Shown: positions 288 to 63,166 of the stretch, piece after piece | Layout: the number at the start of each line of letters is the position of its first letter | Numbering within the stretch: the stretch's first letter is position 1 | Assembly: GCA_015143295.1 (NCBI GenBank) | Contig: CM026564.1 | Span: forward strand, 13,690,416-13,754,415 | Direction: 5' to 3' | Length of the DNA: 64,000 nt | Source of the DNA: Tetracentron sinense | Taxonomy: Eukaryota > Streptophyta > Magnoliopsida > Trochodendrales > Trochodendraceae | Made by a program: the position numbers and the translations under genes | The notes under the pieces: generated by a model | What the model saw: the letters and a program-made list of their open reading frames with translations, nothing else | The model's database searches: none | What the model was told of the DNA's origin: nothing

Positions 288-410
288 CTAATAGTAGTCC
301 TCCACATGAGGCTCCATAGTAGGGACCTCCTCAACGTACTCCTCTTCCTCTCATGGACCGGGAGCACAGATGTCAAAAGGAGTAGGTGCTCCACTAACAC
401 CTACCGACAT
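288..410 (-). pseudogene. LTR A acidic mini-ORF, interrupted by one stop
   Basis: Codons run from ATG at 410 to TAG at 288. Residues begin MSVG and include PFDICAPGP, then a stop where sister copies have Trp, then EEEEYVEE and HVEDYY. The TGA at the Trp position fits one G-to-A transition. See the intact copies at 7456, 12920, 50546 and 63047. Confidence 0.55.
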
Positions 411-4563: not shown

Positions 4564-4758
4564 CTAAGAGGTGTAGCCGCCCAAGTCTCCGGCTCCCTCC
4601 TCGGCAGGCTCACCTTCACCTCCTTCCTCAATGTATGTCTCCTCAACCCACGGCTCCGCCGTGTACTCCTGCTCTATACCTGCCAAGACAAAGTCCGGCT
4701 GAGTACAAAGGTACTCAGTGTATATAAAATCCAACCAACAATAATGATATACCTGCAC
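4564..4758 (-). CDS. LTR C acidic mini-ORF (open 64 codons)
   Basis: The frame contains AEPWVEETYIEEGGEGEP and ends GGYTS-stop. It shares the PWVEExYIEE core with the other LTR copies, but the ATG of sister copies is replaced here, so the start is unclear: either the upstream ATG of this open frame, or none. Strongly acidic, no membrane segment. Function unknown. Confidence 0.45.
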   Translation of the reverse strand: MQVYHYCWLDFIYTEYLCTQPDFVLAGIEQEYTAEPWVEETYIEEGGEGEPAEEGAGDLGGYTS

Positions 4759-5110: not shown

Positions 5111-6027
5111 GTGGTCCACATGTGTGACTTGTGAGACTCTTATCTTAAAATACACGTGCATATGTGCTTAAGTGTCGAAATTAACATTCGAGTTGATAAT
5201 TGCTTAGATTCCGATCTCCCACCATGGAAACTCCACTATACTGTCCCATACCAAATAGTTAGAGAATTCCCGGTTTGAGAGATGTTCCTCTAAGTTCTTA
5301 CCTTCCCGACTATCAATTTCCATGCAAATAATTAGACATACTTAACAAACCATTCCCATATACATATCTTATCATAATTCATATCGCAATTCATAATCAA
5401 TTTACCACCATTTCATAAGAGTATAATAGCATTTATCTCACAGACATTTTCACAAACACCTTGAGTACACATAATATGAATCCATTGTTTCTCTACCTTT
5501 TCATGCATTCATCAAATCATAATTTCATCCATACAATCCATATATTCATCCACATCCACAAATTAATCCCATCCTCCATACATTTCCCATCCTCCATACA
5601 TTCTATCCATATTTAATCCACATTTCCAATCCACATATCCACCCATAATTAGCTTGCTTCTTAGAAAATTAGGGAAAATGCATCAAACATCTATTTCTAC
5701 CATTCCTAGCATCTTAACATTCACAAAACCTTAAAATAAAGTTGATTAGGATAGTATATCGACCTTAGGAATCCTTCCCTTGGATTCAAAACGCTCCAGA
5801 GACGATTTGGAGAAGCTTCCCAAACTTTTCTTGCAATCTCCTATCAATTTCCTCCTTCTCCAAGAAAACCCTCTCTCAAACCCTAGGGTTTCTCCCCCTT
5901 TTTGCCAAATTAGGTTAGAACTAGGTGGAGTATTTTAATATTTCAAGTTGGACCCCCTATTTATAGCCTCAAGGTCTGAGAACAAAAGACCAAAAAGCCC
6001 TTACTAAAATTCTGTAAAAATCACGAA

Positions 6028-6196
6028 AGACCGAGCGATCGGTTGCCTACCGATCGATCGGTGTTTATGACCGGGCGATCGGTCAAAAACACACTCTCTG
6101 GAAAATTTCCCCATACAAAATTTTGAACTAGTCGATAGATTCCGATCGATCGGTTTTGGACCGATCAATCGCTGGTTCTGACCGAGCGATCGGTTC
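6028..6196. repeat. ACCGATCGATCGGT-type palindromic minisatellite, LTR C
   Basis: Several GATCGATC-centred palindromes. The nearest lies about 60 bp from the TATA box on the minus strand of this LTR. Confidence 0.8.
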
Positions 6197-7105: not shown

Positions 7106-7455
7106 AAGTTACATGAAAATGTTTAATTTCCAAGCAAGCAAGCATGATTCCATGGTATGACATGCACGACACGACACGACACGCAATACAAGACAAGCAC
7201 GACTCGACAAGATCAAACAAGACAGAACAGGACAAGACAAGTTTTAAACACGAAAAGAGTATTTTAAGTCAAGTCAAGCACATGACGTTTTCAAGAGATT
7301 TTCAACTTTGATATGATACAAGCATGAACTATAAACTGTTTACTTTTCTTGTTAATTATATGAACTGCTTCCCGCTTTGCTCTGTCATTATTATGCTATG
7401 ATTGTTGGTTAGTTTTTGGTACCCGCTGAGTATTCCATGCTTAGCTGTACTTCTT

Positions 7456-7575
7456 ATGTCGGCAAGTGATAGTGGAGTGGCAGCTCCTTTTCACATCTGT
7501 GCTCCTAACCTATGGGTGGAGGAGCAGTATGTTGAGGAACCTATGGAGGAGCCTCATGTAGACGAGTACTATTAG
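7456..7575 (+). CDS. LTR B acidic mini-ORF, 39 aa
   Basis: ATG at 7456, TAG at 7573. Residues include MSASDSGVAAPFHICAP, LWVEEQYVEEP and HVDEYY. Intact. Same length and frame as the copies in LTRs D and G. Acidic and Trp/Tyr-containing, with no family I recognise. The start ATG overlaps an acceptor-like site, so translation would need an unspliced or internally initiated RNA. The conservation is seen; function is inference. Confidence 0.5.
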   Translation: MSASDSGVAAPFHICAPNLWVEEQYVEEPMEEPHVDEYY

Positions 7576-10500: not shown

Positions 10501-11139
10501 TAAGGACAATCTGTCAAATGGACTACTCTAAATATAAAGACAACATATTTCTAAGGGTATCCACTGAGCGATCCAGTTGCAATAGAAGTACTTCTTACTT
10601 ATATCCACATCTTAGTCAAGAGACCATTCTATCAGTGATTGAGATTCATCACTCCATCATATGGAAATAACAATGTGTAAGTTATTAGGAATACATTGTC
10701 CAGATGTATCCTGATTAACTTAGAACAATTTTAGGTCTACAAGGAACCTGAAAACCATATCTCCTTAGTAATCAGTTCTCAACTAATTGGATGGTTTTCC
10801 TACAATATTACCTAAGGGACAAAGTAGTCTCATCCAATGAGATACTTTAGATATATTACCCAATGTAAATGTAGAGCCCCAGACTTTTTTCATGCTTAAT
10901 ACATGGCACTTTCGTTGCCATTTTACCTTTAAAGAGGTATAATTAATAAATAAAGAAGAAATTGGAAATTTTGAAATGTCAGAAATGTTCCTTTTCGAAG
11001 TACGAACCCAACGCAAGTTGAATCGTCAAAATCGGACGAACGAGTCAAAAGATATGGCCAAAACAGTCTGGACCTGCAGGCAAACGTAGCTCGGAAGGCA
11101 CTAAGGACGTAGCTCGAAAGGCGATAAGGACGTAGCTCT

Positions 11140-11512
11140 AGCTCAGACAACGGGTACGTCGTGCAGCAGACAACGTGTATGTTGTACAGCAAACAACGAG
11201 TACGTTGTACAGCTCACAACGTGTACGTTGTGCATCCGTTGTGCAACAGACAACGGGTACGTCGTGCAGCAGACAACATGTACGTTGTACAGCAAACAAC
11301 GAGTACGTTGTACAGCTCACAACGGGTACGTTGTACATAAGACAACGGGCAACGAGCTCAGCACAACGTGTTCAGTACTATTCACAGCACAACGTGTTTG
11401 GCACTGTTCACAGCACAACGTGTTCAGCACTGTTCACAGCACAACGTGTTCAGCACTGTTCACAGCACAACGTGTTTGGCACTATTCACAGCTCAACGTG
11501 TTCAGTACTCGC
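11140..11512. repeat. ACAACGTGTACGTTGT-type minisatellite of LTR D
   Basis: Two adjoining arrays: about nine ~22-bp units with the palindrome ACAACGTGTACGTTGT, then six ~26-bp units with CACAACGTGTTCAGCACTGT. They occupy the slot filled by GATCGATC repeats in LTRs A, B, C, G and I. Confidence 0.88.
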
Positions 11513-12919
11513 GTTTTTGCAGAAATTTCAGTAAGGGTATTATGGTCTTTTGGTCGGTTTACTCTTACCTTAAGAGTTTAACCCGAGCCTTTAGGGCATC
11601 ATTCAACACTTAGAGAGTTTGAGAGAATAGGAGAAAGGGGAGAAGGCGATTCCAACCTAGGGTTTCCATTTTGGAGAGAAATCAAGGGGTTTGTGAACCC
11701 ACACTCCACTCAAGCCCATTTTTCTTCAAGATCAAGGCACAAACTCGTGAAGAGCATCTCCTCAAGCTAGGGCAGCAACTCACGGTTGTTTTTGGAAGGG
11801 GATTTCTTCCTCACTTGATCAAGGTCGGTACTTCTTGCTACCCTCCTAGTTATAGCTTCTCTTTCCCTTTGTTTCTTCTCGTTTTCCTTCACTCATATAT
11901 GTGTTATGAGATTGGTGGTATGAATGGTGAATGGAGGTGGATGTTGGTGACTGGATGCCGTGTGGATGATGTGGTGAATGAATGGGAAAGGGCATTGCAC
12001 TAATAATGAACATACAAGTGTGATGTGAGCATAACCCACCTAGAAAAGCATGATTTAAGTTTAAAGGAATAATGAATAATGAACACACCATGTTTGATGA
12101 AATGCCAAGGTGAATAAAGTGAGTTGTAAATTAGGAAATGCATGCCTAATAAATTATGGATATTACTAGGGCCTATGATAGTGTGTTTTCTTGCTTTCCC
12201 TAAATGATATGAATATTACATTGCTCAATCATTGATGTTATATGTGTTGTGAAATTACCCAAATGTCATGTTTAAAATCAAATGCAAGTATGCACACGAT
12301 CCCACAAGCACGGCATGCATGACATGAATTTACCGAGGCTTTCAAGAACAAGGTTGAGAGGTGGGACATATCCTACGATATGCTTTACCTCGCTTTTCAC
12401 AAGAAAACAAGAACAAACACCCACGAGAGGTCTCCCCTCACTCACAAGTGCATATCATGAAGAAGGGTCTCCCTTCCCTCGCAAGTACATACATATCATG
12501 AAGAAGGGTCTCCCTTCCCTCGCAAGTGCATTGCATAAAGAAGGGTCTCCCTTCCCTCTCAAGGCATCTCACAAGCGCATCTCACAAGTGTATCTCACAA
12601 GTTACATGATCACAAGCAAGCACGCATGACATGCATGACATGACACAATATACAAGAATCAAGCAAGATAGACAAGACGAGCTTTCAAGTACGAAAAGAT
12701 ATTTCAAGCCAAGTCAAGTGCACGATGTTTTCAAGAGGTTTCATCGGCTTTCTACAAATTACAAGCATGATTATAAATTGTTTTGCTTCCTTGTATGATA
12801 TGAATTGTTTCCTTCTAACATGTATGAATTGCTCCTAAATTATGTATACTATCTGTATGCTATGACTATTGGTTAGTATTTAGTACCCGCTAAGTATTCC
12901 AAGCTCAGCCGTACTTCTT

Positions 12920-13039
12920 ATGTCGGCAGGTGATGGCGGAGCAGCTGCTCCTTTTGATGTCTGTGCTCCGAGCCCTTGGGTGGAGGAGGAGTACATCGAG
13001 GAACCTTTGGAGGAACCTCCAGTAGAGGGTTACCATTAG
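12920..13039 (+). CDS. LTR D acidic mini-ORF, 39 aa
   Basis: ATG 12920, TAG 13037-13039. Residues include MSAGDGGAAAPFDVCAPS, PWVEEEYIEEPLEEP and VEGYH. It differs from the LTR G copy at only two residues, Val/Ile exchanges. Predicted small acidic protein, no known domain. An acceptor-like CGGCAG lies inside codons 3-4. Confidence 0.5.
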   Translation: MSAGDGGAAAPFDVCAPSPWVEEEYIEEPLEEPPVEGYH

Positions 13040-13539
13040 GTGGTTGTAGATTCTGAGTGAATAGCTGTGGGTGAGATGAGAGATATACATTCATGTATTT
13101 TGGCGGGTCTGTCCGCACTTTCTTTTGGTTACTTTTTGTATAAACTTGGATTACCATGTGTATATACTTAGAGGTTGTTAGACTTCCGCTGTGTTTTATA
13201 GTTATGTTTCCGCTGTCATCCTCTATTGTATATGCTCTGTGGGTTTTGCAGGTTGGTTGCCAAGCAAGTCATGATTAGTCGTCCAAAGTTCACTCTAACT
13301 CCTAGGGTGGGTTTTGGGTCGCGACAGTAAAAGACAATGTGTGAATGTAAAATATGTATTTATTGATTAAATAGATAAATACAATTCTGGAATGGCTTTC
13401 GTGGGCATATATGTCTAAAATAAGTTCATAAATATTGACAAAGCCAAACATTAGGTTGGTGTTTCTAAGATCGGTTACCTTATGCTTACAAGGATCATAT
13501 CTATTATATTACATAAGCTCCAAGGATCATAAGTCTCGC

Positions 13540-13760: not shown

Positions 13761-13940
13761 TACAAGGTGTTTAGTTTTCCACGAAATATAAGATTTGACG
13801 AAAGGTTTTCTATGTTGGTTTTTAAGTGTAAATTATGAATTGTATTCTTTTAAGTACTCGCATGTAATATTATTGTTGTCATAGTATGGTTAGCTAGTAG
13901 TTTGTACACGCTTAGTATTTCATGCTCAGTTGTACATTTT

Positions 13941-14048
13941 ATGTCTGCAGGTCCGTTCGGCATCTGCAACTCCGAGCCATGGGTTGAGGAGGAGTATGCG
14001 GAAAAGAGGCGTCTATCCTGTTACAGTCTCAAGAGGACAGAGATCTAG
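13941..14048 (+). CDS. LTR E acidic mini-ORF, 35 aa, C-terminus frameshifted
   Basis: ATGTCTGCAG start at 13941. Residues MSAGPFGICNSEPWVEEEY, then divergence, stop at 14046. In another frame, 14046-14072 encodes LDRWPCLDY-stop, which matches the C-termini LDRWSYLDYC of LTR H and DVWPYLDYC of LTR I. This copy therefore carries a frameshift. The sequence overlaps a good acceptor TGTCTGCAG. Confidence 0.45.
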   Translation: MSAGPFGICNSEPWVEEEYAEKRRLSCYSLKRTEI

Positions 14049-16759: not shown

Positions 16760-16876
16760 TTTCACAATGTTGGGACAGAGATTTCCACCAAGCTTCCTCT
16801 CATTGCCTTTTTCTGCCTTCTCTCCATTTTTCGATCACGAGAGAATTCTCAACAGTAGCCCTAAACGAGGAACCAG
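16760..16876 (+). other. Predicted 5' UTR exon of the PTI1-like kinase
   Basis: A CT-rich leader precedes a good donor (ACCAG|GTGAGC at 16876/16877). An intron of about 1.1-1.2 kb then runs to the coding exon at 18093. A 5' UTR intron is plausible because no in-frame coding lies between. The transcription start is inferred from the TATA-like motif, not measured. Confidence 0.55.
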
Positions 16877-18092: not shown

Positions 18093-38945
<20,853 letters not shown>

Positions 38946-39035: not shown

Positions 39036-39322
39036 GCGTTTGTTAACACTAGTCTAAAAGAAGTGCTTATTTGAAAATTATGCTTAGTTGGACTTTAAAT
39101 TTTTAAGTTGAAGGTTAATTGCATGTCTACATGTTAGAGATTTTAGGAGTAAAAACCTCTACTTTAAAAAGTAGTTCCATAGCTACTTTTTATGGTAGAG
39201 GTTTTTACCCCTAAAATCTCTAAAATGTAGACATGCAATTAACCTTCAACTTAAAAATCTAAAGTCTAACTAAGCATAATTTTCAAATAAGTATTTCTTT
39301 TTAGACTTGTGTTAACAAACGC
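39036..39322. mobile_element. Hairpin MITE directly downstream of the kinase stop
   Basis: GCGTTTGTTAACAC...GTGTTAACAAACGC; the 287 bp folds along its whole length, with AGGTTAATTGCATGTCTACAT complementary to its partner. It starts 90 bp after the stop codon, so probably lies in the 3' UTR. The TSD is not clear; the termini resemble hAT-type MITEs. Confidence 0.85.
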
Positions 39323-42253: not shown

Positions 42254-43094
42254 ATTTAAGAACCGGAACCAAGTTCACTAGGCATTGAATAGTGTTTTCA
42301 AGGCCTAAACCCTTAATGAAATCGTGGTTTCATGTTTTAAAATGAAAGGAGGTTTTGAATGAATTAAAATGTGTATGGAAAGTTTTATAAATGTTTTAAG
42401 ATCTTGAGGAGAGTTTTCTTTTGTTTGTAGGAGTGAAAACATAATTGGGGTAAGTTTAGTTTGAAAGAAAAAGGGAAGCCTAAACATACCCTCAACTTTA
42501 AAGAGCTCTAAATTTCTCACCACTGATCGGAATTGAGTGATTCTTAAATTTTTGAACATATATCAAAACCCTCTTAAAGGTTCATGTTTATCACTTTTTC
42601 AGATTTTGAGTCGAAGTTGGGTCAAACATCAGATTTCTGAAAACTAGTCTGCTGAAATTCTGGTCTGCTGTAATCCATCCCAAATCAGTCATCTTTAAAG
42701 GTCATTTAGTCCATTAAAAACTTAAAATTAGGATTTGTCCATTATACAAAAAATTGTTCCCCTTTGAATGACGAGTCCAACTTAAGTTGAATCGTTAAAA
42801 TCCGATAAGTGAGTCAAAAGTTATGGCCAAAATGTCAAAGCGAGAAAAACTCAAACAAGTCAGAGTACCTACTCGTCGCCGAGTGCCATGAACTCGTTGA
42901 TGAGTGAGACGAACAAAATGAAAAAAAATATCACTCGTCGACGAATTCAACTCAGAAATGATCTGTAACTTGCCACCGACCTTGGGAGATATTTTCTAAG
43001 ATATTTTTGAAATTTTTCCAACCTTTAGGCTATAAATAGGGTCTGATTTTTGTGGCTAAGGGTTACCAAACCCTTGAATATAATTGAGAGAGAT

Positions 43095-43131
43095 TGAAGA
43101 AGAAGAAGAAGAAGAAGAAGAAGAAGAAGAA
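43095..43131. repeat. (GAA)12 microsatellite
   Basis: Uninterrupted GAA/AAG run in the presumed transcribed leader of LTR H, about 60 bp after its TATA box. Confidence 0.9.
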
Positions 43132-44240
43132 AAACTCTGTTCTTTTCAAAGTGTTCTTCTCGGAGCTCAAGTGAGGTCCCAACCTTGTTCTAGAAGCTCA
43201 TGCTTCATTCATTTGGTGTTATAAAGTTCAAAATTCATATTCAAGTTGATTCCTCAAGCTTGAAATTCTCCAAAGAAATTTTGTGCGTGTTCTTGAAGAA
43301 GGGGGGTTTTCAAATCCAGTTTTTCCAAAGCTTCAAGCAAGCTTTCTGAAGTTTGTTTTTTATCCTACAGAAGTGTAAAAACTTCATTTTTAAGGTAGAT
43401 ACACTCTACTTTCTACCCTTGATTATTCTTTAAATAAAATCATGTTTTACAGTGTGTTCTTGGATGAATTGAATGATGAAGTCTAAGTGTTTGTAAGCTA
43501 TCACTATTATTGAATTTCTATGACTATGATTCCATGTTTTTAAGCTTTCTAAGTATAGTATGATGTTCACAAGTATTCTATGCACTCTTTGTCTTACATG
43601 TCTCGCATGATTTGAAAGTTTTCTCATAAGTCGGGTTATAGAAGCATTCATAAGAATTCTAATAACTCATAAGTTACCAAGCTCAAAAGCATTGATAAAA
43701 CCAAACTAAGGGTTGGTCAAGGATAGGGCATATCCAAGGATATGTCATATCTGGTTCAAAGTACTTTCATAAGAAGTTGGATAAAGCCAACGGGAAGGTT
43801 GGTCAAGGATCTTGGCTGCCCACTTCTATATATTTGATGAAGGGTATTTATATGCCCGAATCTAAGTCTTTTTACAGGTACTAAGATCTGGCTCTAAGTT
43901 ATGCTCATAAGGATCTCATAAGCTCAGAAGTGAATCTCAAAGTCTCTAAGTGCTCTAAATCTCTACGGATCATAAGCTCATAAGTGCTCCAAGTTTCTAC
44001 AGCTCATAAGAACTCTAAGAACTCTAAGGGACTCAAAGAACTCATAAGACATGATTCTCATACGCTCATAAGACTCATACAGTTTTAGATTTCATAAGAA
44101 ACTCATAAGGAAATGATTTTGGAACTAGTACGGGTTTTTTACGGATTTCTACGGCTCTATGTCTTTGTATGCTCCATGATATTATCTCATTTTTAGCTAG
44201 TAGTTTGTAGACACTGAGTATTCCATGCTCAGCCAAATTA

Positions 44241-44375
44241 TTGACTTCGACAGGTTTTGATGAGCGTGCTCCTGAGACTTGGATAGAGGAGGACTACTAT
44301 GAGCCGGAGCCTACCATGGATCATCATCAGGATGATGGAGCTCTAGATAGGTGGTCTTATCTAGACTATTGCTAA
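44241..44375 (+). CDS. LTR H acidic mini-ORF, 44 codons, no ATG
   Basis: The frame carries ETWIEEDYYEPEPTMDHH and ends LDRWSYLDYC-TAA at 44373. The ATG of sister copies is TTG here. The C-terminal DxWxYLDYC is shared with LTR I through synonymous codons (TAT/TAC, CTA/CTC, TGC/TGT). Very acidic; no known family. Lack of ATG leaves translation doubtful. Confidence 0.42.
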   Translation: MTSTGFDERAPETWIEEDYYEPEPTMDHHQDDGALDRWSYLDYC

Positions 44376-44521
44376 GTGAGAGAGGTGTATTTTGAGAGTG
44401 GGACTTGTCCACTTCATACTTCATACTTCATATTTTGCTATGTTTTGTTGGTTCAGACTTGAACCTAACGATAGGAGTGTTTTATTATACATTGCTTCCA
44501 CTTTATTTCTACTATATGTTA

Positions 44522-44924
44522 CTAGCGGGTGGAACGTACGATGCACGTGAGAGCAAGGGGAAGGAGTTCCACAGTTAATAGGAGTTAAAAGGGACACGTG
44601 TTAACCCGTTGGTGCAATTGAACTTGCTAGTGGCACGTGTGACGCACGTAAGAGAGAGGGGAAGGAGTTACCACAGTTAATAGGAGTTAAAAGGGTCACG
44701 TGTTAACCCGCAGGTGTGATTGAACTCTCCCTGAGTTTAATCACAATTGGCTGTGATTCAAAATAGATAGATGAGTAAGGGTAGTTTCGAAATTAAATCA
44801 AAGGTAAGGGGTCGTTTGGGAATTAAAGCAAACATTAAATCAAAGTTTTGTTTTTATATAAGGGTAGTATGGGAATTTTCAGAAAAATCATCTATGGCTG
44901 CCCCTCGCATTATAAAAGTAAAGA
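44522..44924 (-). mobile_element. Non-autonomous Helitron, reverse orientation
   Basis: Read on the minus strand it starts TCTTTACTTTTATAATGCG and ends ...CACCCGCTAG with a GTGCATCGTACGT-type hairpin, between host A (44521) and T (44925), as expected for Helitron insertion between A and T. A second CTAG terminus about 105 bp inside (near 44629) shows duplicated 3' ends. Confidence 0.7.
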
Positions 44925-45366
44925 TAAAAGAAATTATTTAAGAGACACGTGGTTAACATGTCTCAAATGTTAGACACTAAGTGACACATGGTTGATATGT
45001 CTCCCATGCACAACTTAGGTTAAAAGTTTGGTCAGTTTTAAGTTAATTAATTAGGTATTAAGGTTATTTAAGTTGGGCAAGATTATATACAACTAATCCT
45101 ATTATATTAAAGTGTATCTCACCCTACTATACTTCGGATAATCCGATTGAGTCCTATACAAGTCCGATTCATATGATCTTATAGTCCAATGCTATTGGTT
45201 TGATATGATCTATAAGATGACACATTCATTAACTTTCAAAAACTTTCTAAGAAATCCTCGAATTCAATGAGTCACTCCCGACCGTTCCAAGAGTTAACCG
45301 AAAATGTTCGATCATAATATCGGAAATGACTTGCTAGGTTTATTGAACAAAATTTCAGGGTATTAC
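44925..45366. mobile_element. LTR-like remnant
   Basis: Ends TTTCAGGGTATTACA, like a Gypsy LTR terminus. No start or TSD recognised. Confidence 0.3.
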
Positions 45367-46426
45367 ATAAGTACTTACAACTATAATTTTGTTTAGTTGA
45401 CACTACTAATAAATGAATAATCAGTTATTTCTAATAATATATTTTAATCAATTTAAAAATATTTATTTTAAAGAATCTATCTTAAGAGTAATGGATCTTA
45501 ATAGAGGCTTTACTGGATGCAACATAGTTATGCTTCATAATAATCATCTCTTGCAATATTATAAAAAACAACCGATTGTCGCATATTTATAATTCTATAA
45601 TATTGCAAGAGATAACTATTGTGACAATTTGATGATTTTTTTTTGAAATTTCAGTCGAGGTACCCCAAAATTTTGCAAAATGTTGAAATCTTGTCCTCTT
45701 TTTCCCTCCATTGGTTCATATTATTGTAGTCATAAGTTATTATGCATTTAAACACTAACAGTTGTAATTTTGTTTAGTTGACACTGTGAATAAATGATTA
45801 TTCAATTATTTTAAAATAATATTTCAATTATTTTTTAAAAATGTATCTCAAGATTAATGGATCTTAATTAGAGGCACACACCAGGGCTTTGTCCCAGTGG
45901 TAGTGTATCCCTTGCTTTGGGGGGAGGTACCGGGTTCCATTCTCTAGAGGGTGGGAGTTTGTATATACTCTCCACCTGCCCACTAACTGAACAAATACTA
46001 AGACCTAACCGGCGTTGCGGCCTAAACATATATCTCGAACCAAAAATAAAAATATAGTGCGTGCAAAGTATGCTTCACAATAATCATTTCTTGCAATATT
46101 ATAGAACCATAAATCTATGATAATTTGGCAAAATTTTTGAAGTTTCTATCAAGTTACCCCTAAATTTCACAAAAATTCGAGCTCTTGTCCTCTTATTCCC
46201 CCTTGGTTCATATTATTGCAACCATAGGTGATTATGTTGCTAAGCACTGACTGTTGTAATTTTGTTTAGTAGACACTGCTAATAAATGATTATTCGGCAA
46301 TCTTTTTAATAAAGTATTATAGTCATTTAAATAATTTATCTCAAGATTAATTGATCTTAATTATAGGCTTTACTGGGTGCAAAGTAGTTATGCTTCAGGA
46401 TAATCATCTATTGCAAGATTCTAGGG
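45367..46426. repeat. Three-copy ~390-bp tandem repeat
   Basis: Units share TTGTAATTTTGTTTAGTTGACAC-like starts, TCAAGATTAATGGATCTTAAT, and ATAATCATCTCTTGCAATATT, beginning about 45372, 45756 and 46243. The second unit is interrupted by a SINE; the third is partial. Confidence 0.75.
45880..46046 (+). mobile_element. tRNA-derived SINE inside the tandem repeat
   Basis: A-box-like CCCAGTGGTAGTGTA, B-box-like ACCGGGTTCCATTC, and an end AAAAATAAAAATA. It interrupts the second ~390-bp unit at GAGGC. Confidence 0.65.
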
Positions 46427-48007
46427 CCCGTTTGGTTCGGATTATTCAAATCAATTTAATCACTTAAAAGCGCTTTTGATAGAATCGTCGATATATAATC
46501 GTGTTTGGCTCATTTATATTAATCAATTATTATGAAATAAATTACATCTAAAACCACTACGAAGAGAATCGCTCGAAGCGGTGATTACTGCTCAACACAA
46601 TCCGTTTCCACGAGTCGATTGTGCGACCGATTATGACGGACTTGAGAAATTCGTAAATGACTTGAGACTTTTTTTCTCGTGCTCTCACACAATGGTTTGT
46701 AAACAGGAAGGAGAAGGAAGAGCGATCACTGGAAGGAAGACAAAGTACCTAGTCTTCTTTGTCAGCATCCACGTCTTCTTCGTCATCTGCATCTTCATCT
46801 ACCCTTCTTCTTCTGTTTTTTTAATTTATTTTTCTTTAGTAAAATGTAATTCAAAAGAGGGGTTGGTTGTTAAAAAAGGGAGATCTATCTCATCCGTGGC
46901 TTTGAAAAACTGCAAGTCCTCTATGGGGTTTGAGTTTTAATTTTGTGCTTTTGGTTTGGGTTTGGTTGGGTGGTTTTGGACCGTTGGTCATGGGAGATTT
47001 AGCTTCCTCCAAATCATATTTCCTCCAATATCTATCTTCTCACAAACCCAGCTCCAAATGCCATTACATCTCTCTCTCTCTCTGTAATTTAGGGCTTTCT
47101 TGATTTTAATATTTTCAATTGGTAATGTTCAAGGAATTTTCTTGAATTTGTTGAAGCATTGATTTTACTGAATTTGTGTTCTTGTGGTGGTGTTTTTGCA
47201 TTGATTTGTTTGGTCTCCTATGATAGAAAATGGATTTATTGAGAATTCTTGGGTGATCTACAAGGACCCAAAAAGGGTTTATATAGATAATCTAAATTCC
47301 TAATATAGAAGGATCTCCCCCTAAAACACATGGGGATTTTGAGAAATTTGATGAGTTTGTTGGAAATTGAGATACAGCTGACACATTGGATCTTCAAGAC
47401 ACGCTTATTTGAGTCGCTTGCTCGATCAGGTGGTTGATTCGCTGCCAAGGACAGTGGATGGGCCAAAAGAAAAGAAAAAATCACTGTGGGCCAAGAGAAT
47501 GAGTTCATATATGGGTGGGCCAAGAAGACCTCAAATGAGCCGAATAGGATGCCCCCTGATGGGGATGAAATTGGGCCTTAACCAGTGGGTTTAAGAAAAG
47601 AGGATTAAAATGGGGTCAAAGAGAAGAAAGAGGGGCCTTTGTAGGAAATAGATTGGACCTCAACAGAATAAAATATGAGAAGTATAGACGATGAACAAAA
47701 AATGTGCTCGACTCAAGTCATGGGCCTTATAATGCTGAAGAGAATAAGCCCAAGAGAAGAGGGTTGAAATAGAAGTGGGGGTGATATTTGTAGGGAAGAT
47801 ATAATAGAGGCGAAGAGCAGAAGCTTTACTCAGTTAGTTAAGAATAAAGAAAGGTGTGCTTTGATGGGTTAAGGAATGCTGAGGAAGGGGTCTCGTATGG
47901 ATCTGGCAAAACAAAAAAAAGACAGATGGATACCTCAAGGATAATCCTAATCTAATCCTAAAGATCATAATCTAATTAATACTAATCTTTCATATACCTT
48001 ATCTTTA
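46427..48007. other. Unassigned DNA inside the Helitron composite
   Basis: Begins GGGCCCGTTTGGTTCGG, like one end of a hAT-type MITE, whose partner end was not found. 46980-47230 (CT-rich leader, GTAATTTAGGGC) resembles the 5' UTR of a host gene and could be captured. No coding frame with a recognisable domain. Confidence 0.35.
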
Positions 48008-48715
48008 TCTTTACTATTATAATGTGAGAGGCAGTCGTAGATGATTTTTCTGAAAATTCCCATACTAGCAAACTAAACTTTAATTTAATGTTTGCTTTAA
48101 TTCCCAAACTACCCCTTACCTTTGATTTAATTTCAAAACCACCCTTGCTCATCTATCTATTTTGAATCACAGCCAATCGCGATTGAACTCAGGGAGAGTT
48201 AAATCGCACCCACGGGTTAACACGTGACCCTTTTAACTCCTATTAACTGTGGTTAACTCCTTCCCCTCACTCTTATGTGCATCGCACGTGGGGAAGGAGT
48301 TAACCACAGTTAATAGGAGTTAAAAGGGACACGTGTTAACCCACGGGTGTGATTGAACTCGCTAGTGGCACGTGTGATGCATGTGAGCGTGAGGGGAAGG
48401 AGTTAACCACAATTAATAGAAGTTAAAAGGGACAAGTGTTAACCCGCAGGTTCGATTGAACTCCCCCTAAGTTCAATCGCGATTGGCTGTGATTCTAAAT
48501 AGATAGATGAGCAAGGGGTAGTTTTGGAATAAAAGTAAAACATTAATCAAAGGCAAGGTGTAGTTTGAGAATTAAAGTAAAACATTACTCAAAGGCAAGG
48601 GGTAGTTTGAGAATTAAAATAAAACATTAAATCAACGTTTTGTTTTTTTATAAGGATAGTTTGGGAATTTCAGAAAAATCATCTACGCATGCCTATCGCA
48701 TTATAATTGTAAAGA
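48008..48715. mobile_element. Head-to-head Helitron pair
   Basis: A forward 5' end TCTTTACTATTATAATGTG after A at 48007 runs to about 48290. From there a reverse-orientation copy continues to 48715, where GA|T is a reversed 5' TC end. The arms AGTTAACCACAGTTAATAGG are inverted around a CGCACGTG centre. CTAG at 48362-48365 is a 3' terminus. Host LTR H resumes at T48716. Confidence 0.65.
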
Positions 48716-48836
48716 TAACTTGTGTCCTCTCATAGGGTGGTATATATGCCTTATGTGTCATACAGGATAGTATGATACGGCAGTCACGAGCTAAAGTATC
48801 CCTAATTCGTAGGGGGTATTTTGGGTCGTGACAGAG

Positions 48837-48850
48837 TTGGTATCAAAGCC
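48837..48850 (+). other. Primer-binding site of element H
   Basis: TTGGTATCAAAGCC, complementary to the 3' end of initiator tRNA-Met with one change, three bases after the LTR end. Confidence 0.8.
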
Positions 48851-49215: not shown

Positions 49216-50258
49216 ATGAGGCGTGGCGCTCGAGGTAGAGGTTATCAGACCAAAAGGACTGAAGGACAGATTCCAATGGGCGAGGAACAACCCGACTTTA
49301 TGAACCTTCTCGAGTCAATGGCCGAGGCGTTGACTCTTTTAATAGTTAGGCAGACTAGTGCAACTGCGACTACATCCCCACTTCCTCCGGTACATCATAC
49401 CGCAGGATTAGAGGCTTTTCGAAGACTGCGGCCTCCTACTTTTTATGGGACGCTCGATCCCATGGCTGCAGAAGCATGTATCATGCAGCTAGAGAAGAAA
49501 TTTCAGGTACTTCATTGCACCGATGAGCAGCGTGTTGAGTGGGCTTCCTTCTTAATGGAAGGCGAAGTTGAACATTGGTGGAGAGCTACCCTGAGGCAAA
49601 GGGATGTAGCTAAGGCAGGGGTACTCTGGACATGGGGGCGTTCTTAGATGTTTTCTACGAGTAGTACTTCCCCAGGTTTGTTAAGGAGCAGAAGGTGAGA
49701 GAGTTTATGTTTCTCGAGTAGGGAGAGACGAGCGTGGCCGACTATGAGGCTAAGTTCGTCGGGCTGTCGAGATGATCCACATTTGATCGTTACTAAGAGT
49801 ATACGAGTTAGGAAGTTAGAGGATGGATTGCGGTCCTTCATCCATGATAAGGTCCTATGTTCTAGGTAGAGACTTGGAGGGATATTGTGGGGAAGGCGAA
49901 GATTGCCGAGAGGAATTCTGAGGCATTTCTCATGAGGAGAGATGGTGGCTTGGGAAGAGGCATGTTTCAAGGACAGTCCAGTGGCTTAGCATCGCCTGAG
50001 AAGAGGGCTAGGACTAGTCCATATCAGACTTCTCAACCTAGGCAGGCTTAGAGGCCTCCTTTTGCCCCACAAGCACCTCGCCCTATTTCTACATAGATCA
50101 CTAGATATGCGCCTCTCATATCCTCGACATCGTCACCATTTGAGGAGTGCGCTGTTTGTGGTAAGAGGCATAAGGTCGAGGAGTGTCGTAGACTTTCTGG
50201 GGGTTGCTTCCACTATGGTGATCAGGGCCACATGATCAGGGATTGCCCACGGAGGCAG
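49216..50258 (+). pseudogene. Gypsy gag of element H, broken
   Basis: Starts MRRGARGRGYQ. The capsid-type gag domain is seen as LRPPTFYGTLDP, EKKFQVLHCTDEQRV and EGEVEHWW (about residues 70-125). A frameshift near 49633 and several TAG/TGA stops follow (FYE-stop-YFP, FLE-stop-GE). Zinc-knuckle region 50148-50246: CAVCGKRHKVEEC, then CFHYGDQGHMIRDC, where the second Cys is Tyr. It ends at solo LTR I. Non-functional. Confidence 0.85.
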
Positions 50259-50545: not shown

Positions 50546-50686
50546 TCAACAGTAGTCGAGGTACGGCCACACGTCAAGGTCTCGGTCCGCCTGAGACTGC
50601 AGTGGGATAGACGGCTCTCTCTCCTTGATATACTCTTCCTCGACCCAAGGCTCTGGGTCGAGGGCTCCCTCAGTACCTGCCGACAT
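50546..50686 (-). CDS. LTR I acidic mini-ORF, 46 aa
   Basis: ATG at 50686, TGA at 50546. Residues include MSAGTEGALDPEPWVEEEY, IKEREPS and the end DLDVWPYLDYC. Intact and the longest copy. It shares PWVEEEY with LTRs D, E and G, and its C-terminus with LTR H. Confidence 0.5.
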   Translation of the reverse strand: MSAGTEGALDPEPWVEEEYIKEREPSIPLQSQADRDLDVWPYLDYC

Positions 50687-53145: not shown

Positions 53146-54398
53146 GGCAGTTACTGGCTAGGCTGTATGGAGTTAGACTTCCAGTCAGGCAGACTTCATA
53201 GCAGGGGTCTTTACAGGCTTCCAAGCCTCCACAGTCCACCCAACTACCTCGCCGGGTAAACTAGGGTCAGGTTTTCGCCATGACAGAGCATGATGCACAT
53301 GCATCAGATGATGTTGTGCAAGGTACACTCAAGTCAAAGTTGTTCCAGTTATGAAATGTTGATGTTATATATATATGCTATGATTGCCTATGAGTACAAC
53401 ATGTTACCTATATAATATGTGTGACTTGTGAAATTTATTGACGTAAGTTAGTTTAATTATTCAAGTGCCTTACTCATTAGCGAGTGTTTAACGCGTGTGT
53501 TGATTGACACTAGATCAACGCATTCTTTTATCTCATCTAGCTTTGCCAAGGGCTTTGCCTCAGAGCCGAGTCGATTACCCCAGGAGTTGTCTATTTCAAC
53601 TTCGCTCGGCAAGTTGGTTGATGCAGACAAAGTGTATCGGGGCAGTGTCGTGCAAGTTAGACAGCATGAGTTGCGAGTCAATCTGATCATTCTTGAGTTC
53701 CAAGACTTGGACTTTGATGTCATCCTAGGGATGGATTGGCTCTTGACTCACCATGGGCATGTAGCGTATTTTAAAAAGAGGGTGGACTTCAGGCCAGAGG
53801 GTGTGAAACCGTTTTATTTTCGAGGGATACGGAGGAGAGACGTCACTCGCTTTGTAGACCTTAGATTCTTGAGTTTGGAGGTACGAGACTCGTCAACCAT
53901 TCCAGTTGGGAGTGTGTACCTGGAAGTATTTCCTGAGGTTCTGTCGGGTTTCCCTCTTAATCGAGTGATTGAGTTCGTGATCAAGCTTACTCCGGGAACT
54001 GCTCCAATTTCTAGGGCTTTATACAGGATGGCCCCTATTGAGCTTAAGGAGTTGAAGGAGCAATTGGAGGAATTGCAGGGCTTTGGATTCATCTGGCCGA
54101 GTGTTTCACCATGGGGAGCTCTTGTGCTCTTCGTGAAGAAGAAGGATGAGTTGATAGAGATGTGTATTGATTATAGCCAGCTCAACAAGGTCACGATCAA
54201 GAATCATTATCCATTACCTCGGATAGACGATCTATTTAATTAGCTAAAGGGAGCGAAGTTCTTCTCGAAAATTGATCTTCGATCTGGGTACCATTAGTTG
54301 AAGATCAAAGCTGAAGACTTTCCCACGACTGCCTTCAGGACTCGGTATTAGCACTACGAGTTCTTGGTCATGGCTTCTGGTTTGACGAATGCGCTATG
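53146..54398 (+). pseudogene. Gypsy gag end, protease and RT start of element H, broken
   Basis: 53275-53335 reads VFAMTEHDAHASDD, the usual gag-protease linker. After about 150 non-coding bases, the protease appears at 53497: [11 protein letters not shown] (the active-site Asp-Thr-Gly is DTR at 53506-53514) and [10 protein letters not shown] starts with [18 protein letters not shown] and [14 protein letters not shown]. Stops at 54241 and later, then LTR J cuts it at 54398 after GLTNA. Catalytic YxDD is not present. Confidence 0.85.
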
Positions 54399-55255: not shown

Positions 55256-57860
55256 CCAACACAATCGTCTGATCTCAGCCACGGTGAGGAACTCTAGCCT
55301 CACAGCATCTCTATCAGACAACACAACCATCTGACACAGCCACGGTGGAGAATTCTATCCTCATGACATATCTATCATATTATAGATAACATAACTGTTA
55401 GCCTCAGGGTTACAACCATACGTACCCCTATTAATTTTGATAATAACATAATAATAAAATGAAATATTTGGTACTAATAAAACCATTTAAGTGCGTGAAC
55501 ATTTCAGATTACATAAGTTGATAGCACTCCAATCATGAAAAAGGATGGAAATTACCCAAGAGGAAGTTCAACTCACTGAATACAAGATAAAGATCCAAGA
55601 TAAGACCTTAGTCCAAGTCAGATCCATTGAAGACAAAAGACAAAATCACAAGATCCAAGTCAAGCCAAGATCACCTCTCATCATTTTTAAATGTATTTAC
55701 TTTTTATTCTGAGAATGTATAGGACTTATGTAAAATGTCCTCAAAAGGATGGTAAGTTGAAAAGCTCAAGAATCATATATTGACCATAGGAGCCTAGGAC
55801 ATTTTTGAAGATCACTCCAAAGCCCTAATTAATCATAAAATTTTGATAAGAGTATAGCTAATTGACCTAGGAAATCAATCACATCCCTTCAGTGTGATCC
55901 AAGATTGAATTCAGAATTTTTACTCTGAATCCGTCGACGAATTCTCCAGGTGGATTGAATTCGGCGACGAAGTCATTACAAAAATTTTCAAATTCAGTTC
56001 TGTTTCTTGATTTCGGTGATGAAATCTTTGGTTGGGTTAACTTCGGCGATGAAGTTATTACAGGATTTTTTAAAATTAAATTCCATCTTTTGAATTCGGC
56101 GACGAACTCAAGTGGGAACTCTACTTCGTCGACGAAATCATGTCTGAAATTAAAAATTTTTTGTAACGGCTAGTTTGCAACGGACCTAAAAGCATTTAAT
56201 GCTACCCCAACGGCACTATTGGATCAAATGATATAAAAGGAGTTCATTTATGAACATATCATAACTCTTGATCACAGCAATAACCCCCATCTATCACCGA
56301 TTCACTGCTATTGATTTTCACTTACTCTCATACTTAGAAAATCCCCAAAAATTCTCTCTTGAGCTTACTTGACTCCTACCTACTTTGAGAGACTTAATTA
56401 GAGTTTGTATTTCACTCTTATTCAGCTCATTTAAGGAGCTTTCTCTTCGGATTTTTAATCCAAAAACTCATTTATTGAAAGTAGTCAAGAATCCAGGATT
56501 CTTGCACTGAAGCTATTGCTTCAGTTATTTCAAGAGAGGGTTGTCTCTTGAGAGGTTTCAGCTCGGCCTAAAGGAGAGCTTGTAAGGTAATATCTCGACC
56601 TGTAAGAGAGATTGTAAAGGCTTGGACTCCACCTGTAAAGGAGCCAATGCGATTAAGGAATCATGGTGAATCCTCTAGCTGGAAGCTATAGCGGGGAGTG
56701 GGTTGGATTGCTGAACCTCGTAAACAAATCTTGAGTTTGCATTCTCCTTATCTCTTATCTCTTTCCTTTAAATATTCTACAGTTCAGCTTGTTGCATATT
56801 TAATTTTATTCCGCACTTCTGAATTTGTAGTTCAATTTTAAAAAAAAGCTGCCATAGACCCTATTCACCCCCCCTTTAAGGTCATTACCTGGCCAACAAC
56901 AACCATCTGACTCAGCCACACTGAGGACCTCTATCCTCATGACATATCTGTCAGATAACACAACCATCTAACTCAGCCACGGTACGAACGACATATCTAT
57001 TAGAGGCATCACAACCTACTGACTCTACCTCGGTACGACATATCTATCAGATAACACAACCATCTGACTTAGCCATGGTACAGACGACGTATTTATCAGA
57101 GGCATCACAACCTACCAACTCAGCCTCGGTACGACATATCTATCAGATAACACAACCATCTGACTTAGCCACGGTATGGATGACATATCTATCAGAGGCA
57201 TCACAACTTACTGACTCAGCGTCAGTACGGCATATCTATCAGCTAACACAACCATCTGACTCAGCCACGGTGGGGACCTCTATCCTCACGACATATCTAT
57301 CAGATAACACAACCATCTGACTTAGTCACGGTATGGACGACATATTTATCAGAGGCATCACAACCTACTGACTAGCCTCGGTACGACATATCTATCAGAT
57401 AACACAACCATCTAGCTCAACCACGGTACGGACGACATATCTATCAGAGGCATCACAACCTACCGACTCAGCCTCAGTACGACATATCTATCAGATAACA
57501 CAACCACCTGACTTAGCCACGGTACAGATGACATATCTATCAGAGGCATCACAACTTATTGACTCAGCTTCGGTACGGCATATCTATCAGCTAACACAAC
57601 CATCTGACTCAGCCATGGTGGGGACCTCTATCCTCACGACATATCTATCAGATAACACAACCATCTGACTTAGTTACGGTACGGATGACATATCTATCAG
57701 AGGCATCACAACTTACTGACTCAGCCTCAGTATGACATATCTATCAGATAACACAACCATTTGGCTTAACCACGGTAGGGACGACATATCTATCAGAAGC
57801 ATCGCAACCTACTGACTCAGCCTCGGTACGGCATATCTATCAGATAACACAACAATCTGT
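55256..57860. repeat. ~96-bp tandem array of LTR J, split by copia solo LTR
   Basis: Units carry ACATATCTATCAGAGGCATC, ACCTACTGACTCAGCC and AGATAACACAACCATCTGAC. About ten units in 56899-57860 and two divergent units in 55256-55395. Confidence 0.9.
55396..56898 (+). mobile_element. Copia solo LTR, TSD ACAAC
   Basis: TGTTAGCC...GGCCAACA, 1,503 bp. TATAAAA at 56232, then leader sequence, CCTGTAAAGGAGCC and GGGGAGTGG motifs, and TTCACCCCCC near the end, all usual in copia LTRs. The flanks ATAAC (55391-55395) and ACAAC (56899-56903) fall on the array consensus AGATAACACAACC, so ACAAC is the TSD with one change. Confidence 0.88.
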
Positions 57861-63046: not shown

Positions 63047-63166
63047 CTAATGGTAACCCTCTACGGGAGGTTCCTCCAAAGGCTCCTCGACGTACTCCTC
63101 CTCCACCCAAGGGCTCGGAGCACAGATATCAAATGGAGCAGCTGCTCCGCCATCACCTGCCGACAT
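63047..63166 (-). CDS. LTR G acidic mini-ORF, 39 aa
   Basis: ATG at 63166, TAG at 63047. Residues include MSAGDGGAAAPFDICAPS, PWVEEEYVEEPLEEP and VEGYH. Intact. Nearly identical to the LTR D protein although the two LTRs differ much elsewhere. Confidence 0.5.
   Translation of the reverse strand: MSAGDGGAAAPFDICAPSPWVEEEYVEEPLEEPPVEGYH

Follow-up and report, generated by a model that had tools for sequence, protein, structure and literature searches.

A reading frame conserved in the LTRs of plant chromovirus-like elements is a candidate spliced accessory exon

LTRs are commonly masked as non-coding in plant annotation. Among retroviruses, MMTV Sag and lentiviral Nef are accessory proteins encoded in the LTR; the frame described here resembles these genes in that probable protein-coding sequence lies in an LTR, but Sag and Nef belong to vertebrate retroviruses and are far larger proteins. 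In C. elegans, the Ty3/gypsy element Cer1 produces CERV, a protein needed for export of the genomic RNA, from a spliced mRNA (PMC10309623). Our proposal would share with Cer1 the Ty3/gypsy origin, a spliced accessory mRNA with a separate C-terminal exon, and splice sites that are kept in the genomic RNA; by contrast, CERV has 517 aa, is encoded by five exons and was shown experimentally, whereas the frame here has 37-46 codons and lies in the LTR (PMC10309623). In CRM group A chromoviruses, the polyprotein extends into the 3' LTR, where it encodes the CR motif (PMC3059260). Both there and in our proposal, the 3' LTR of a plant chromovirus contains coding sequence; however, it is polyprotein sequence in CRM, whereas here the LTR frame is separate and, in the element read, pol stops before the polypurine tract. 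Finally, splicing in Ogre, EVD/EVADE and BARE1 sets the proportions of Gag, polyprotein and genomic RNA (PMC12786077, PMC3735527, PMC8892269); partial splicing would be the common feature, but in Ogre, EVD and BARE1 it favours Gag or the polyprotein, and the available parts of these reports describe no LTR accessory exon. For Tekay elements, neither an LTR intron nor an LTR frame is mentioned in the titles and abstract starts among the matches listed, a scope outside which most subscription papers lie; these matches likewise include no separate LTR exon that is under selection and preceded by a structured splice site. In its anatomy, the frame described here is nearest to the accessory genes of partly spliced retroelements.

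The window, i.e. the whole 64-kb stretch of DNA that was analysed, contains eight LTR copies (A to E and G to I) with a common frame of 37-46 codons centred on PW[VI]EEEY. All eight frames were found where an earlier sequence-only reading had placed them and are in sense orientation to their LTR, and the encoded peptide is acidic with aromatic residues retained. The frame of copy D runs from ATG to TAG over 39 codons (12920..13039, + strand; MSAGDGGAAAPFDVCAPSPWVEEEYIEEPLEEPPVEGYH) and, as had been noted, those of copies B (7456..7575, +) and G (63047..63166, -) have 39 codons as well. The same reading correctly described a TGA in place of the Trp codon in copy A (288..410, -), the D-x-W-x-YLDYC common to copies H (44241..44375, +; TTGACTTCGACAG/GT, where the slash here and below marks a presumed splice junction) and I (50546..50686, -; 46 codons, MSAGTEGALDPEPWVEEEYIKE...WPYLDYC), and the lack of an ATG at the homologous position in copies C and H. 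Two of its statements were refined. Copy E (13941..14048, +), the tail of which had been called broken, is frame-shifted in its second half, and its final part is a 74% match to copy I in a different frame. The frame of copy C exists as proposed (4564-4758), but its homology to the others starts only at 4680, and nothing in the other copies corresponds to its codons from 4758; the shared part extends from a GGT codon to the stop (4564..4680, -). A search of the window with a nucleotide profile built from the eight copies gave no further copy: the eight themselves, by construction, score E = 2e-37 or better, and beyond them the best match has E = 3.9.

The LTR of copy D starts with TGTAGAGCCCC, ends with GGGTCGCGACA and spans 10870..13326 (+), with GTAAA on each side (10865-13331 including these flanks). 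We read copy D as a solo LTR and GTAAA as a 5-base duplication. Contig C15 contains a full-length relative, in which the LTRs are ~2.55 kb long with the same start and end, and the primer site is TGGTATCAGAGC. Pieces of this element, part of pol being excluded, gave Pfam matches to Retrotrans_gag, zf-CCHC, RT_RNaseH, Integrase_H2C2 and SH3_Tf2-1; the match to Chromo, in a piece truncated by the end of the locus, reached 21.0 bits and is below the cut-off of 25.1. The two LTRs of the element are 98.7% identical over the 2045 bases compared and, therefore, this group of elements was active not long ago. Its pol ends with KYPELIE and a stop codon ahead of the polypurine tract and the LTR start, which rules out a continuous pol-LTR fusion in this element. 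Of the domains expected in Tekay elements, the element possesses a Ty3/gypsy gag, RNase H, and an integrase with a C-terminal SH3-like domain. From the domain order, the long LTRs and general knowledge of these groups, we read the elements as Tekay-type (Del) chromoviruses.

A hairpin upstream of the frame occurs in its exact 20-base form at 16,834 places in the 1.16-Gb genome, which we take to be that of a plant from the elements and from named relatives, and its reversed control at 0. To avoid selecting copies by the frame itself, we used this hairpin to pick genome copies. We took 70 of the first 100 places in the list, every one of which is on contig C1, and these yielded 67 distinct copies. 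Among the 75 sequences made up by these copies and the eight window copies, 65 were used in three lineage groups, i.e. D (35), I (22) and H (8); left out of the dN/dS calculations were window copies E (frameshift) and C (mis-anchored), L058 (deletion), and L024, L030, L034, L035, L044, L073 and L082, for which no lineage had enough alignable copies.

Using codon alignments built at the protein level, in which sequence pairs share copies and are not independent, pairwise dN/dS was 0.27 in group D, 0.24 in group I and 0.21 in group H, with codon-bootstrap upper limits of 0.46, 0.42 and 0.37, respectively. By divergence bin, dN/dS was 0.19-0.26 in the true frame and 1.02-2.64 in the two shifted frames. 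Codon models on trees gave maximum-likelihood omega values of 0.40, 0.32 and 0.21 for D, I and H, and omega = 1 was rejected in each group (2dlnL of 24.8, 28.0 and 44.9). Informative columns were distributed over codon positions 1, 2 and 3 as 10/10/26 in D, 8/9/20 in I and 13/8/28 in H. Transversions showed this excess at position 3 as well, with a clear signal in D and weaker ones in I and H, and cytosine methylation decay alone is therefore insufficient to explain it. Moreover, of 19 indels within the frame, 18 had lengths divisible by three, compared to 203 of 1260 in the flanks, counted over pairs that again share copies; group I had none in the frame. The amino-acid-level conservation that the sequence-only reading had suspected from eight copies is thus borne out by family LTRs across the three groups, and the indels are not the random frameshifts that would speak against it. 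An antisense reading was rejected: only A, C, D, G and I among the eight window copies have an open codon-aligned antisense frame, and the excess at position 3 of the sense frame does not fit it.

A chance or relic frame under no selection could be argued from three observations, i.e. most copies look dead, a stop interrupts the frame in eight of 57 analysed copies from groups D and I, and one sub-family, that of copy H, has a dN/dS of 0.98. The latter value comes from seven copies, i.e. copy H and six parsable relatives, two of nine (L098 and L102) having been dropped because the junction was not located. However, omega = 1 is rejected by three groups, and we regard a frame without selection as next to impossible. 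The list from which the sub-family was drawn is 87-93% like copy H and, therefore, its differences should mostly postdate insertion and add nothing for selection; we read the 0.98 as decay after insertion in an old sub-family. Among the H copies, three (L015, L016 and L075) have an earlier-than-normal stop; a count of 7/8 included the normal stop. In total, these data argue strongly that the LTR frame is under purifying selection on amino acids, and we hold this to be very probable.

Distant LTR sub-families align with each other mainly in three islands, i.e. ~1.1-1.4 kb upstream of the frame, in the block containing the hairpin, the junction and the frame, and at the 3' end of the LTR. Conservation between them is closest just upstream of the frame, where the frame opens at a 3' splice-site-like block consisting of the hairpin and TCGGCAG/GT, a feature absent from the sequence-only reading. 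The hairpin has the form CUGAGUAU-UCC-AUGCUCAG, and copy C has a compensated version, CUGAGUAC-CUUU-GUACUCAG (4718-4699, -; CTGAGTAC-CTTT-GTACTCAG in the DNA). In copy D, the counterpart of the hairpin, CTAAGTATTCCAAGCTCAGC (12890..12909, +), has two differences from the exact form and is followed by the 3' splice-site-like stretch ending in TCGGCAG/GT (12910..12930, +), in which, as judged from conservation, 12930 would be the first exon base. The hairpin and the presumed first exon base are at 440-421 and 400 in copy A, 63196-63177 and 63156 in copy G, 44214-44233 and 44254 in copy H, and 50715-50696 and 50676 in copy I; copy B has the hairpin at 7426-7445 and AA/GT in place of AG/GT, and copy E has a hairpin-like sequence at 13911-13930. 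The hairpin is part of the lowest-energy fold in five of the eight window copies and absent from that of D, E and G, and the folded acceptor stretches are not unusually stable (z from -1.86 to 0.03). There was no match to a known RNA family at the Rfam gathering threshold, and the hairpin had none in viral contigs.

In 60 of the 67 genome copies, the frame starts at AG/GT. The spacing between the hairpin and the junction varies from 18 to 21 nt in single-base steps rather than in threes while the frame behind holds its phase, and the first codons after AG/GT differ in length between lineages, again with the phase kept. Moreover, TCG-GCA-G/GT has few synonymous changes whereas the codons behind it vary, a measure that in group D combines two spacings. 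Variable spacing, constant phase and a nearly invariant TCGGCAG/GT together look like a coding exon behind a 3' splice site. The location of a GAG- and GAA-rich frame directly behind such a block is also what would be seen if the purine-rich GAGGAGGAG served the LTR acceptor as an exonic splicing enhancer and the frame were a non-coding by-product; however, changes concentrate at third positions, the shifted frames are without signal, indels keep the frame, and codons beyond the purine run (FDVC and YLDYC) are kept as well, making this explanation very improbable. An enhancer may exist in addition to the coding frame.

A contiguous in-frame ATG is present in 55 of the 60 copies that have AG/GT. 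This ATG falls within the last ten bases of the conserved 3' splice-site-like block and, in the D and I lineages, inside the presumed acceptor itself (ATGTCGGCAG/GT). In window copy C, there is no ATG before a stop. In the H lineage, 10 of the 12 copies tested are without a contiguous in-frame ATG; here, the frame is kept and AG/GT mostly so. Because copy C and lineage H retain the frame and the acceptor without the ATG, a simple ATG-initiated microprotein misfits some copies. The ~1.1 kb upstream of the local ATG is crowded with ATGs.

These observations bear on the proposal of the sequence-only reading that the LTR encodes a stand-alone microprotein, which would have 39-47 residues and start at the local ATG (MSAG...). 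In a variant of this proposal, an ATG-poor exon 1 would be spliced upstream of the ATG, e.g. to the CTCAG in the hairpin arm, making the ATG the first AUG of a short mRNA. The frequency of the local ATG, an ATG-poor exon 1 and a stop in the same LTR fit a microprotein, and the selection data apply to it equally. However, the ATG is absent in copy C, the family of which is young and abundant (a further 39 places scored at 97-98% identity, of which some form pairs ~7.4-7.5 kb apart; one copy was read), and in the ATG-less H copies, for which pN/pS in a set of four is 0.44. Moreover, unspliced RNA would place some 50 ATGs ahead of the local one, and the nearly invariant synonymous sites of TCG-GCA-G/GT are splice-site-like rather than codon-like. 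Thus, the selected peptide frame of the earlier proposal stands while its stand-alone ATG start was not established, and we consider the microprotein possible but rather unlikely, with or without the upstream splice. The location of the ATG in the acceptor block, its absence in copy C and lineage H, and the crowding of ATGs upstream lead us to prefer an exon over a frame that starts locally; that this exon is entered by splicing has, in our estimate, roughly an even chance.

About 1.1 kb upstream in the same LTR, an ATG-poor stretch ends in a 5' splice-site-like block. This upstream island comprises TATA-like boxes, which are clearest in lineages H and C (CTATAAATAGGG), the GA-rich and ATG-poor stretch, and the donor block AAG/GT..GTAC..TACT, which is present in 35 of the 67 genome copies. 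Among the window copies, the block is present in A (from 1529), D, G (from 63544), H and I (from 51950) and, in a looser form, in C; it was not found in B and E. In copy D, it reads AAG/GTCGGTACT (11821..11839, +), and the intron would start at 11824. Copy C has an ATG-free stretch (5720..6114, -) with the TATA sequence GGCTATAAATAGGGG at 5966 and a donor-like CCTAAG/GTCGATATAC (AAG from 5766). In copy H, the island (43030..43410, +) has the TATA box GGCTATAAATAGGG at 43030 and the donor block TTTTTAAG/GTAGATAC (AAG from 43392). Two H-lineage LTRs, L068 and L072, have a minimal upstream AUG-stop, ATGTAA, shortly past the TATA box.

The last 280 nt of the presumed exon 1 contain 0.24 ATGs versus 1.39 expected, with none in 27 of 34 copies; behind the donor block, there are 13.6 ATGs per 280 nt of presumed intron (34 copies). 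The donor can be folded into a hairpin, the sequence of which differs among lineages I, D and H (z of -2.9, -3.2, -1.7 and -1.7); in the stems, GUUAGUA pairs with UACUAAC, GGUA with UACC, or GUAGA with UCUAC, i.e. the stem is kept and the letters are changed. In lineages H, L030/L073 and C and in four I copies, exon 1 ends with TAA/G. In those copies, exon 1 therefore cannot supply the frame, and reading through exon 1 into the LTR exon is ruled out. Intron-less genomic copies were rejected as evidence of splicing: three matches to the junction pattern were all unspliced with an extra base.

Altogether, we propose that the frame could be a coding exon located in the LTR and joined by splicing to the mRNA for an accessory protein of Tekay-type chromoviruses; we judge the chances for and against this proposal to be balanced. 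The hairpin and AG/GT would form the 3' splice site of this exon, and the LTR would also provide the first exon, which is poor in ATGs, together with a TATA-like box and a 5' splice-site-like block with a possible hairpin of its own; a second candidate acceptor would lie just ahead of the gag ATG. Besides the unspliced genomic RNA, the element would produce two spliced RNAs, i.e. a gag(-pol) mRNA and one with the LTR exon as its last coding exon, and the hairpins at the LTR splice sites would hold splicing partial. The accessory protein would terminate at the conserved LTR stop, and its start codon might come from an upstream coding exon, for which the first gag codons are a candidate, or from the acceptor ATG in lineages that have one.

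The acceptor-like site near gag is CTCAG/GA in D, I and C copies, where 8-10 nt separate it from the gag ATG; the I-type copy L093 has CTCATGA and the window element of copy H has CTCGG/GA. In L095 (C17:21769080-21769700), of the young C family, this site looks strong, with a long T tract and TTCTTCTTCTCAG/GA, and the distance to the gag ATG is 10 bases.

In a special case of the exon proposal, which resembles Cer1, the first gag codons (MRRxxR-G/GT) would be joined to the exon in the 3' LTR, giving a basic-acidic protein of ~43-50 residues. The phase at gag codon 7 fits: this codon is GGT in the D, I, H, L089 and L090 lineages while codon 9 is GGA, GGG or GGT, and D, I and H share no other phase-1 GT site in the ~140 gag codons compared. 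The acceptor-like site just before gag is consistent with such a fusion. However, the donor would be weak in most lineages, among them D and I (CGGG/GTCG), the one C-family gag that was read has no GGT at codon 7, and sites of this kind occur by chance in pol (5 of ~290 codons), suggesting to us that the fusion is unlikely.

Searches for protein homologues found none for the copy-I peptide, and an alignment of six peptides (A2) gave seven candidates, none of them with E <= 10; the same protein database yields 7155 relatives of the protease frame of the window, many of them named from plants. As to the role of the encoded protein, our guess would be the handling of unspliced RNA or, given its acidic nature, transcription. 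A fuller version of the exon proposal, with a regulatory accessory gene organised as in complex retroviruses, in which structured partial splicing joins a start exon to the LTR exon and the small protein acts back on unspliced RNA or transcription, appears doubtful to us. If the exon proposal is true, thousands of LTRs, solo LTRs included, hold the last exon of an accessory gene, and a gene has been overlooked in one of the commonest groups of plant elements. Moreover, how element RNA is divided between genome and message could then be tested directly, and host transcripts could acquire an element-derived exon from solo LTRs that are expressed.

The window contains several further features. 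The LTR of copy H seems to reach 48833, and repeat-rich DNA with direct and inverted repeats (~44.5-48.7 kb) seems to be inserted in it (44375-48833); downstream of the LTR end and a primer-site-like sequence at 48838, the element of copy H encodes the N-terminus of gag (MRRGARGRGYQT...; 49216..49644, +). An open frame of 263 aa for a retroviral-type protease (RVP_2) at 53452-54240 is the sole stop-to-stop frame of at least 180 aa in the window. The segments 21219-22873 and 23342-24961 form an inverted repeat of ~1.65 kb with 88% identity and ~470 bases between its arms, and a near-perfect palindrome of 287 bases (91%) at 39036-39322 is perhaps a foldback transposon. Finally, overlapping direct repeats with offsets of ~96, 253 and 349 bases at 56899-57859 are probably a tandem array.
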